In this document: in pieces, positions 30,201 to 40,028 of the stretch | Numbering within the stretch: position 1 is the stretch's first letter | Layout: every line of letters starts with the position of its first letter | Assembly (NCBI GenBank): GCA_022846075.1 | Contig: AP025582.1 | Coordinates: 62,001 to 126,000, forward strand | Length of the DNA stretch: 64,000 nt | Reading direction: 5' to 3' | Source of the DNA: Oscillospiraceae bacterium | Lineage (GTDB): Bacteria; Bacillota; Clostridia; Oscillospirales; Oscillospiraceae | Made by a program: the position numbers and the translations under genes | The notes under the pieces: generated by a model | The model's database searches: none | Seen by the model: the letters and a program-made list of their open reading frames with translations, nothing else | Told to the model about the DNA's origin: nothing

Positions 30201-30354
30201 AAAAAACGCCCATTCCGGCGTGGAATGAGCGTCCGTCTGGCCCGTGCTGACCGGGGCCGATGGGGACAAGACCTCATTCAGCCCGTGCGCGAAGCACTTC
30301 TTTGCAGCTATGACCGGGTATTTGGTTGTTTTTCACAGGGAAGACCCTTTATCT
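30201..30354 (-). ncRNA. ssnA leader with intrinsic terminator, candidate riboswitch or attenuator
   Basis: On the minus strand, ACGCTCATTCC (30232-30222), loop ACGCC, GGAATGGGCGT (30216-30206) form an 11-bp stem with one GU pair, followed by six T residues (30206-30201). This is a good terminator 53 bases before the ssnA start. About 120 nt of leader lie between the predicted transcription start and this hairpin, including a GTGC/GCAC hairpin (around 30296-30285) and GCTGA/TCAGC complementarity. Promoter, structured leader, terminator and gene in this order suggest control by termination; the ligand class is not recognised. Confidence 0.5.
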
Positions 30355-36279: not shown

Positions 36280-36330
36280 ACTTAAAAAAGAAAACATGCC
36301 GCATTTTTTCTTGGAAAAAATGCGGCATGT
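36280..36330 (-). terminator. Terminator after BlaI-type gene
   Basis: A perfect 17-bp stem (36294-36310 with 36314-36330, loop of 3 nt) is followed on the minus strand by TTTTCTTTTTT. Confidence 0.93.
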
Positions 36331-36345
36331 GGTATTTGATTCCGG

Positions 36346-36714
36346 TCACATATGAAATTCCAGTTCGGACAGGTCCCGCTGGTCGAGGCAGCCGTGCCGG
36401 CACAGGGCGGCGGTGAGGGCCTTGGCGTCCCCGTCGTAGAGACGGGAGACCAGCACCTCGGTCAGGTCCCAGCCGTACTCGTCCCGGGTAAAGCCCGCAG
36501 CATAGGCGGCCACGTCGGCGGTCTTGTCCACCGAGACGGAGCCCTTTTCGGCCAGCCGGGTCAGCAGGGAGCGGACGGTGGTGCGCTCCCACCCCCGGGT
36601 CACCTTCAGCGTCTCCTGGAGCTCCTTGGCGGTCATCGGCGTTCCGGCATCCCACAAGGCCTCCATCACGGAGAGCTCGGCCTCCGAGATCCGGCGGCTG
36701 GCGTAATCTGACAT
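36346..36714 (-). CDS. BlaI/MecI/CopY family transcriptional repressor
   Basis: A 122-residue winged-helix protein of usual BlaI length: RRISEAELSVMEALWDAGTPMTAKELQETL at the N-terminus, then GWERTTVRSLLTRLAEKGSVSVDK, the recognition helix and wing. The C-terminal part mediates dimerisation. Members usually pair with a BlaR1/M56 sensor protease; none is encoded here, so this may be an orphan or respond to something else. GAGGGG lies upstream of the ATG. The MFS exporter gene upstream on the same strand could be a target. Confidence 0.92.
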   Translation of the reverse strand: MSDYASRRISEAELSVMEALWDAGTPMTAKELQETLKVTRGWERTTVRSLLTRLAEKGSVSVDKTADVAAYAAGFTRDEYGWDLTEVLVSRLYDGDAKALTAALCRHGCLDQRDLSELEFHM

Positions 36715-38096: not shown

Positions 38097-38123
38097 ACAG
38101 ACTTTGCTCCTTTTGTTTGTATT

Positions 38124-38208
38124 AATAAAACAAAAGCAAAGCCTGTCGGGGCGATGAGTCAGAAAGAATATCCTCTATGCAGGCCGCCCGTCAGGCTTTG
38201 CATAGAGG
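38124..38208 (-). promoter_or_regulatory. Transcription attenuator before MFS gene (competing hairpins)
   Basis: Minus strand. Terminator hairpin: GCAAAGCCTGACGGG (38201-38187) with CCCGACAGGCTTTGC (38150-38136), 14 of 15 pairs, followed by TTTTGTTTTATT (38135-38124). Competing hairpin: CCTCTATGCA (38208-38199) with TGCATAGAGG (38181-38172), perfect 10 bp, which takes up the first bases of the terminator's 5' arm. Both 5' arms lie in the last codons of the leader peptide gene, so ribosome position could decide which forms. Confidence 0.75.
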
Positions 38209-38229
38209 AGAGACAAGGCAGAGTTTCAC
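38191..38229 (-). CDS. Leader peptide of MFS attenuator (12 residues)
   Basis: A GTG-started frame encoding MKLCLVSPLCKA, ending at TGA 38193-38191. A strong site AAAGGAGG (38248-38241) lies 11 bp upstream, much stronger than chance. Its last codons form the 5' arms of both leader hairpins. It resembles in plan the regulatory peptides before Erm, Mef/Msr and ABC-F genes, where a drug-stalled ribosome changes RNA folding. I do not recognise the peptide sequence itself. Confidence 0.65.
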   Translation of the reverse strand: MKLCLVSPLCKA

Positions 38230-38338
38230 CGGGAAGTTCGCCTCCTTTCACGGCGCGGGGGAATCGGCCGGCGGCGGGAGAGGTGTTTCCGATTATCCAT
38301 GGAAGCAGGCCTCTCCCCTGCCGGATGAGGACGCAGGC

Positions 38339-39598
38339 TCACAGACCCAGCCCCGTCAGCTTCCGGCGGACCAGGTCGAAGGCGTGGCTGGCCGCCACGG
38401 TGCGCACCCGTTCCCGGGGCCCGGCGGCGTGGATGGTGCGCACGTGGACGCCCCCGTCCCAGGCCAGGGCCACGTAAACGAGCCCCACCGGGTTGCCCCG
38501 GTCGTCGGCGTCTGGCCCGGCCACCCCGGTGGCGGACACCGCCAGATCGGAGCCCAGAGCCCGGCGGGCGCCCTCCGCCATGGCCTTGGCCACCGGCTCG
38601 GAGACGGCGCCGTACTGGTCCAGCAGGTCTTGGGGAACGCCCAGGACGCCGTGCTTCACCTCGTTGGTATAGCTCACCACGCCCCCCCGGAAGGCGGAGG
38701 AGGCCCCGGACAGGTCGGTGAACCGCTTGGCGATGAGCCCGCCGGTGCAGCTCTCGGCGGCGGAGAGGGTGAGACCCTGTTCCCGGAGCAGGGAAAGGCA
38801 CACAGACTCCAAAGAGGGCACGTCGGCGCCGTAGATGAGGGGGCCGAACCGCTCCCGCAGCTCCCGCTCCACCGGGGCGATGAGGGTCTGGGCGGCGTGG
38901 TCATTTTCCGCCTTGGCGGTGATGCGCAGCTCCACCTCCCCCTCCTTGGCGTAGGGGGCCAGGGTGGGGTTCTGGAGGGTGTTCATCCGCTCCCGCAACT
39001 GGGCCTCCACCGCCGACTCCCCCATGCCGAAGATGCGCAGGGACCGGCTGGCGATGACCCCGTCGGTGAGGTCCCGGAGATGGGGTACGGCCCGGGCCCG
39101 AAACATGGGTCCGCACTCGGAGGGAGGGCCGGGGAGCATCACCACGTGGACGCCCCCGGCCTCGAACCCGCACCCGGGGGCGGTGCCCCAGTCGTTTTGG
39201 AAAGGAGTGCAGCCCTCGGGAAGGTAGGCCTGCTGGTAGTTGTTCTCGGTCATCCGTTTGCCCGCCTCGGGGTGGAGCTTTTGGAAATAGGCCTCCATCC
39301 GCTGGGCCGCCTCGGGGTTGTAGACCAGCTTTTTGCCGAAGGCCTCGGCCAGGACGTTTTTGGTCAGGTCGTCGCAGGTGGGGCCCAGGCCACCGGTGGT
39401 GATGAGGATGTCGGCCCGGCCCTTGGCGATGTCCACAGCCTGGCGCAGGCGGTCGGGGTTATCCCCCACCACGGTGTGGTAAAAGACGTTGATGCCCAGG
39501 GCGGAGAGCTCCTTGGACAAGGTCTGGGCATCGGTGTTGGCGATGTTGCCCAGAAGCAGCTCGGTGCCGACGGCGATGAGTTCAGCGGTGTGGGACAT
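38339..39598 (-). CDS. cinA: CinA family protein (competence/damage-inducible protein A)
   Basis: A 419-residue protein with both CinA domains. The N-terminal molybdopterin-binding-like domain (1-170) has AELIAVGTELLLGNIANTDAQ and TTGGLGPTCDDLTK. The C-terminal CinA/PncC domain (about 255-415) has TLSAAESCTGGLIAKRFTDLSG and SVSATGVAGP-type sequence (AVSATGVAGPDADD). The latter is a nicotinamide-nucleotide amidase in studied relatives; the former an ADP-ribose pyrophosphatase. ATG 39598 has GAAAGGAAG upstream. It overlaps the DUF2809 gene by 17 bp. Confidence 0.94.
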   Translation of the reverse strand: MSHTAELIAVGTELLLGNIANTDAQTLSKELSALGINVFYHTVVGDNPDRLRQAVDIAKGRADILITTGGLGPTCDDLTKNVLAEAFGKKLVYNPEAAQRMEAYFQKLHPEAGKRMTENNYQQAYLPEGCTPFQNDWGTAPGCGFEAGGVHVVMLPGPPSECGPMFRARAVPHLRDLTDGVIASRSLRIFGMGESAVEAQLRERMNTLQNPTLAPYAKEGEVELRITAKAENDHAAQTLIAPVERELRERFGPLIYGADVPSLESVCLSLLREQGLTLSAAESCTGGLIAKRFTDLSGASSAFRGGVVSYTNEVKHGVLGVPQDLLDQYGAVSEPVAKAMAEGARRALGSDLAVSATGVAGPDADDRGNPVGLVYVALAWDGGVHVRTIHAAGPRERVRTVAASHAFDLVRRKLTGLGL

Positions 39599-40028
39599 GA
39601 AAAGACTTCCTTTCAAAACGAGGTAAGGGGCCCCTTACCGGCCTTTTCCGGCGGATCCGTTTTTCTCCCGCCAGCACCAGCCCGCCCCCGATCAGGTAAC
39701 AGACCATGTCCGCCCAGTCAAAAGTGCTGCCCAGCAGGACGCGGAAAAAAGGGATGTGCCCCAGGCCCAGCAGGTCCACCAGCCCGAAGGCCTGCCCCGC
39801 CTCCACCAAAAGGGCGAAGCCGGTGACTCCCGCGGGCAGCCAGGGCAGCCCGGAGGGGAACAGCACCCGGACAAAGGCGTAAAGAGTGCCCACAACTAAA
39901 ATATCCCCCACATAGGGCCGGATAAAACGGTCATGGACAAACACAGCGATACAAATCTCCACCGCGAGCAGGAGAAGAAAGACCACCCCGTATGTCAGCC
40001 TGGGGGAGAGCCTCTCCCCGGTCCTCAT
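39582..40028 (-). CDS. DUF2809-like small membrane protein
   Basis: A 148-residue protein with four hydrophobic segments (for example LTYGVVFLLLLAVEICIAVFV) and the late motif FFRVLLGSTFDWADMVCYLIG, which fits the DUF2809 family. The function of the family is unknown. ATG 40028 overlaps the stop of thiI (ATGA), so it is translationally coupled; a longer frame from 40115 lies wholly inside thiI and was rejected. Its end overlaps cinA, giving a tight thiI-DUF2809-cinA operon. Confidence 0.75.
   Translation of the reverse strand: MRTGERLSPRLTYGVVFLLLLAVEICIAVFVHDRFIRPYVGDILVVGTLYAFVRVLFPSGLPWLPAGVTGFALLVEAGQAFGLVDLLGLGHIPFFRVLLGSTFDWADMVCYLIGGGLVLAGEKRIRRKRPVRGPLPRFERKSFHVPHR

Follow-up and report, generated by a model that had tools for sequence, protein, structure and literature searches.

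Upstream of an MFS exporter gene in this Oscillospiraceae bacterium lies an RNA through which a ribosome stalled by a drug probably switches the exporter on. The window, that is, the whole stretch of 64,000 nucleotides that was analysed, holds between cinA (38339-39616) and the exporter a leader element that is best read, with a probability of roughly 0.75, as a ribosome-mediated translational attenuator. A hairpin (P1) together with the pairing of regions 3 and 4 (3:4) would constitute its OFF state, and the pairing of regions 1 and 3 (1:3) its ON state. The leader has the anatomy of such a switch, a peptide frame conserved among relatives, and covariation in both competing helices. An earlier note had proposed a leader-peptide attenuator before an MFS exporter; the two exclusive folds and their conservation bear this out, and the polarity and the level of control are revised here. 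The features are as follows.

38241-38248, minus strand: ribosome site of the leader ORF, AAAGGAGG (sequence)
38191-38229, minus strand: leader ORF with GTG start, 12 codons and TGA, (M)KLCLVSPLCKA* (sequence)
38199-38209, minus strand: P1 hairpin, 5' arm, leader codons 7-11 (inverted repeat; covariation)
38171-38181, minus strand: P1 hairpin, 3' arm (inverted repeat; covariation)
38187-38201, minus strand: region 1, partner of region 3 in the predicted ON helix, spanning the leader stop codon (repeat; covariation)
38136-38150, minus strand: region 3, partner of region 1 or else of region 4 (repeats; covariation)
38128-38136, minus strand: OFF-helix extension, 5' half, taken earlier for a T-rich terminator tail (repeat; re-pairing test)
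38110-38118, minus strand: OFF-helix extension, 3' half, overlapping the exporter ribosome site (repeat; re-pairing test)
38107-38114, minus strand: ribosome site of the exporter, AAAAGGAG (sequence)
38097-38108, minus strand: region 4, adjoining the exporter start codon and pairing with region 3 in the predicted OFF helix (repeat; covariation)
38096-38094, minus strand: exporter start codon
36792-38096, minus strand: MFS exporter gene, 434 aa, Mef / TIGR00900 group (profile matches)

Among the Mef-type NCBIfam models, the exporter scores best against Mef(C), at 101.9 bits, which falls short of the curated cut-off of 870, and its 164.4 bits against TIGR00900 likewise stay below the curated 319.6. 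Mef(A) records share only about 23–27% identity with exporters of this group. A scan for sigma-70-like promoters listed none in the stretch from cinA to the leader. The exporter is followed by a BlaI/MecI-family repressor gene (36346-36714), and a 17-bp hairpin with a T-run at 36294-36330, behind the repressor gene, is a likely terminator. The genome of the window is a single contig of 3.23 Mb with one copy of the leader element.

Within the leader, several repeats compete for the same letters. The P1 arms (38209-38199 / 38181-38171) form a perfect 11-bp inverted repeat, and thereby the perfect hairpin noted earlier over the last leader codons was recovered, as was the GTG-started 12-codon frame with its ribosome site. 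The 15-nt arms of 1:3 (38201-38187 / 38150-38136) are 93% complementary, with 14 of 15 pairs around a 36-nt loop, and a T-rich run follows at 38135-38124, in agreement with the overlapping 14/15-bp pairing described before. A third repeat, overlooked in that description, joins 38146-38135 to 38108-38097 with 92% complementarity (3:4). A perfect 9-bp repeat (38136-38128 / 38118-38110) extends it, and 3:4 plus extension encloses the exporter ribosome site. Since both use region 3, 1:3 and 3:4 are mutually exclusive. The 159-nt leader of the window folds with a z-score of -3.71, and none of 200 dinucleotide shuffles was equally stable. A chance origin is untenable because the leader is conserved in relatives.

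A homologue scan with one genome per species gave 39 MFS loci, whose upstream DNA was then read. A leader ORF of the consensus type or a recognisable variant is present in 34 of them (L003-L036; exporters 47–67% identical), including the divergent L015, in which P1 is retained and 1a:3a is lost. The five loci without leader (L037-L041) encode cyanobacterial and streptococcal proteins of 28–33% identity. Searches of the genus and the family added 23 further loci, and 21 of the 22 testable ones carry the leader; L060 (54% identity) is without it, and L064 has no upstream DNA. Furthermore, model R2 matched the exporter leaders of Subdoligranulum variabile and Monoglobus pectinilyticus, chromid-like records used in no model, with 58.8 and 89.0 bits.

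The helices are conserved by compensating change. Alignment A1 comprises 31 of the 44 leaders found; the 13 left out are nine long leaders, L031 and L032 (near-duplicates of L030), plus L051 and L054, which depart from the common GCAAAG at the start of the exporter. Standard pairs account for 95.5% of P1, 98.8% of 1a:3a and 96.8% of 3a:4, and the covariation of each lies above 500 of 500 shuffles, with relatedness uncorrected. When partners are slid by 1–3 columns, pairing falls to 50% or less. Because 1a:3a and 3a:4 share one strand, both alternatives of the switch are under selection. A wider set of 66 distinct leaders was drawn from 93 loci; the pattern used by the script failed to detect 17 of these loci, most of which show a leader on visual reading, eight others were removed for duplication or a wrong anchor (L066, L015, L058, L059, L092, L114, L118, L125) and two as identical (L032, L077). 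True partners beat 5000 of 5000 re-pairings, again with relatedness uncorrected, in 3a:4 (66 leaders), in 1b:3b, the segment of 1:3 that follows the stop codon (n=66), and in the 3:4 extension (n=65). At least six contiguous pairs of 3a:4 occur in 65 of the 66 leaders; L051 has ten, via covariation, and L054 only five. Long inserts lie between regions 3 and 4, within the OFF-helix loop, in L007 and L035. Conservation of the peptide and of both stems with covariation, by which the earlier note would judge its claim, was thus found in related leaders.

The family consensus of the leader peptide is M-x-L-C-I-[VA]-x-A-P-C-[KR]-[VA]-stop. Of the 66 distinct leaders, 56 have Leu at codon 3, encoded by six different codons, and 45 have Cys at codon 4, encoded by two; both positions lie outside any helix. 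As Leu3 and Cys4 are kept through synonymous codons outside helices, selection acts on the peptide. Leaders range from 12 to 17 codons at a constant distance from LCI to the hairpin: in those of 15 or 17 codons the extra length is N-terminal only, and the LCI-P1 spacing is unchanged. The stop stands at codon 13 in 58 of 66 leaders and is absent in six; one more ends elsewhere. In L008, L050 and L090, this stop is lost, the frame continues into or past P1, and the helices are intact.

Such constraint bears on the idea of a small-molecule riboswitch in which the ORF would be incidental. Conserved, mutually exclusive helices would suit a riboswitch, and a pseudoknot of P1 and 1b:3b is sterically conceivable. 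However, the retention of Leu3 and Cys4 with synonymous change in a fixed register speaks against it, as do the lack of conserved unpaired bases outside the ORF in A1 and the SD-led short ORFs that span P1 in other families too, so that a riboswitch is highly improbable.

The least explained observation is a bias at codons 5-6 (38217-38212 in the window) towards ATT with a G behind it, which is unpaired and far beyond codon usage. ATT makes up 44 of the 45 Ile codons at codon 5, where 14.7 are expected from codon usage in these exporters, and the first base of codon 6 is G in 64 of 66 leaders. A search for RNA that could pair with the conserved ATTG covered exact downstream complements, which are no commoner than in re-paired leaders. 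A pairing of codons 3-5 with codons 9-11 inside the ORF was dropped, since leaders with altered P1 arms (CGCGCA) keep TGCATT. Additionally, a putative second ORF, starting at the NTG of this motif and read in the LHAK frame, runs for at least 12 codons in 65 of 66 leaders, with a start-like ATG, GTG or TTG in 51 of 66. P1 by itself imposes much of this openness, and no ribosome site lies at the right distance.

A position-dependent switch is predicted by mask folding, in which a stretch of the leader was made unpairable to imitate a ribosome and the mask edge was counted from the start of codon 3. With no mask, the window RNA gives 1.0 for both P1 and 3:4. With the edge at 18–21 nt, 1:3 rises to 0.81–0.99, and from 24 nt onwards 3:4 stands at 0.94–1.0; the RNA flips only with the ribosome front edge at leader codons 8-9. 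With the edge at 21 nt, 52 of the 66 leaders have 1:3 above 0.5; at 24 nt the number falls to 10, and from 27 nt it is zero. At 27–36 nt, all 66 have 3:4 above 0.5. The leading edge of a ribosome lies about 15–17 nt from its P-site codon, and a front edge at codons 8-9 therefore puts the predicted stall near codon 4-5, at LCI. Under a folding model that excludes pseudoknots and co-transcriptional folding, the 66 leaders without mask are mainly in 3:4 in 37 cases and mainly in 1:3 in 28. For the exporter ribosome site, accessibility increases on average from 0.25 to only 0.39, and in the window itself the value is about 0.43 wherever the mask is placed; perhaps the AT-rich extension hairpin can persist and keep this value unchanged.

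The proposed translational attenuator would operate in three situations. With no ribosome on the leader, P1 would form, 3:4 would pair and the exporter ribosome site would be hidden. A ribosome reaching the leader stop would cover region 1, and 3:4 would form again. A drug-stalled ribosome with its P site at about codon 4-5 would cover the 5' arm of P1 and leave region 1 free; region 1 would then capture region 3, region 4 would be released and the exporter would be translated. The switch would thus be OFF both without translation and with free translation, and ON solely upon an early stall. This predicted stall, after about five residues, may resemble that of the cat-86 leader. A drug would be the cause of the stall and the exporter would remove that drug, which may bind near the peptidyl-transferase centre, as the presence of the switch before Cfr- and CAT-like genes suggests. 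The earlier polarity is hereby reversed. The 10-bp hairpin, formerly given as the ON structure, should be OFF because the P1-containing fold hides the exporter ribosome site, and an early stall, formerly held to let that hairpin form, must break it according to mask folding.

The level of control has to be weighed separately. The earlier note took 1:3 for an intrinsic terminator and P1 for its antiterminator. The window indeed has 14/15 pairs in 1:3 and, directly behind it, TTTTGTTT, with 7 T in 8 nt, and the Mef(E) and CplR leaders use terminators (PMC4335068, PMC10201436). Yet a T-run behind region 3 (at least 6 T in 8 nt) is found in only 12 of the 66 leaders, window included, while the competing, site-hiding helix is conserved, and a conserved terminator hairpin with U-tract, the trait of the mef, cplR and vmlR transcriptional attenuators, is lacking among these leaders. 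The loop of 36 nt also argues against a terminator; a consensus terminator scan, with a loop limit of 8, omitted the 14/15-bp pairing. Moreover, the T-run is explained as a partner of the A-rich stretch, its own pairs being those that beat every re-pairing, and the P1 state hides the exporter ribosome site in folding. Since the T-run is unconserved and pairs with the A-rich stretch before the exporter ribosome site, the element is read as translational, and purely transcriptional attenuation appears quite unlikely. In the window sequence itself, a contribution of termination is possible. Control at both levels, with translation as proposed and transcription added where a T-run exists, as in the window, is an unlikely arrangement. 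It would accommodate the 12 leaders with a T-run and has a precedent in CplR, whose terminator hairpin also hides a ribosome site (PMC10201436), but the window's T-run sits behind the predicted ON helix and would oppose induction.

The same switch stands before other genes. At E ≤ 0.01, model R1 had matches in 47 of the 394 genomes scanned from the order and in 13 of the 398 from the phylum. All 54 places from the order scan and 11 new ones from the phylum scan were read, 65 in total; for many matches the gene type was assigned visually on the basis of the initial residues, with profile scans on representatives only. MFS exporters follow at 36 of the 65 places (one being a 46-residue remnant, L096), a share biased by the construction of R1 solely from exporter leaders. 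Furthermore, 11 places precede CD3324-family genes, three CAT-like genes (one a short ORF, L121), three class I methyltransferases and two ceramidase-like genes, and Cfr, a radical SAM/SPASM protein and an alpha/beta hydrolase are found once each. The remaining seven (L102, L104, L105, L107, L127, L128, L129) lack a convincing P1-type leader with gene or are chance-like. In L096 and L134, the leader MKICSGTAPCKV is retained before a 46-residue remnant of the exporter C-terminus.

By profile, L113 is Cfr (599.4 bits, cut-off 530) and L097 belongs to the CD3324 family (110.5 bits versus 65). L094 obtains 202.1 bits from CatA models against a cut-off of 270 and is matched by Pfam CAT; of the ceramidase-like proteins, L110 lies above and L091 below the Pfam cut-off. 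Behind the CD3324 gene lies a Vat-like gene in L132 and a FusB-like gene in L133, both below curated cut-offs; CD3324 proteins may regulate resistance genes or act as their partners. In alignment A2, comprising 25 leaders of which 17 are from non-exporter genes, standard pairs amount to 98.7% in P1 and 97.5% in 1a:3a, and covariation scores lie above all shuffles, with relatedness uncorrected. Model R2 matched 8 of 378 and 23 of 197 genomes, mostly at places already seen. One genome, G355, has six R2 matches before different genes (L110, L112, L115, L123, L128, L167), at an estimated contamination of 7%.

The P1 arm is read A-P-C-K in exporter, CAT-like, ceramidase-like and hydrolase leaders, L-[HY]-A-K-P in Cfr, several CD3324 and methyltransferase leaders, and in the third frame in L098, L119, L164 and L167. 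The RNA is hence constant where the peptide varies, P1 being read in three frames. An SD-led ORF spans P1 in 22 of 25 non-exporter loci; the script found none in L116, L117 and L126, and an ATG-led LHAK-type frame is present by eye in L116 and L126. In 21 non-MFS leaders, a mask reaching 6 nt into P1 gave a mean 1:3 of 0.88 and a mask placed farther gave 3:4 of 0.77–0.80, on average the same range of mask positions as in exporter leaders; L108 does not follow. The switch is absent from the known plasmid genes cfr(C) and cfr(B) and from a Pusillibacter CatA-like gene.

It is an evenly balanced proposition that one RNA switch serves as an interchangeable cassette, with a sensor peptide that is swapped and read in any of three frames. 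Unrelated resistance genes of Bacillota, i.e. MFS exporters, Cfr, CAT-like genes, methyltransferases and CD3324 genes able to precede Vat- or FusB-like ones, would each be tuned to their own drug, and sensing in the exporter branch would also depend on codons, ATT then G at codons 5-6. If true, resistance-type genes from several protein families without relation to one another are under the control of one undescribed family of attenuators, such genes can be found via their switch rather than their protein, and drug sensing is indicated for exporters and enzymes of unknown substrate. Additionally, because codons are so strictly conserved where the stall is predicted, a new rule for the context of drug stalling could be tested directly.

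Among Rfam 15 covariance models at gathering score, none matched over the window's leader, and across 14 related loci there was no match over the leader and one tRNA only. The sole Rfam match at gathering score within the window is ssnA RNA (RF03031) at 30270-30317. A full-text literature search, with most subscription papers outside its coverage, returned no description of the leader, its peptides or the shared switch. The leader of mef(E)/mel, which has the peptide MTASMRLR and is terminator-based (PMC4335068), likewise precedes a Mef-group MFS exporter, but the window peptide MKLCLVSPLCKA is unrelated to MTASMRLR and thus not of the mef type. The ABC-F genes cplR and vmlR share the very short ORF, and the CplR helix also hides a ribosome site; their leaders differ in having three-codon ORFs and a terminator, and no common sequence elements were found with what the available text of PMC10201436 presents.

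In its anatomy, the element belongs with the translational attenuators of cat, cmlA, fexA and ermC: a short leader ORF that can be translated from a ribosome site of its own is present, and of two exclusive helices one hides the downstream ribosome site. Alternative helices of that kind are shared with ermC-type leaders (PMC5418344), whereas here region 3 is common to regions 1 and 4, the last codons of the leader form the ON helix, and neither Erm nor a macrolide-type peptide (MRLR) was seen. In the chloramphenicol attenuators cat, cmlA and fexA, a drug-stalled ribosome releases a hidden ribosome site, and a short leader peptide likewise precedes an acetyltransferase or an exporter (PMC5418344). 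Unlike these, the family of the window has a different peptide, an extra hairpin within the ORF and a switch of five segments, and the same RNA serves unrelated genes.
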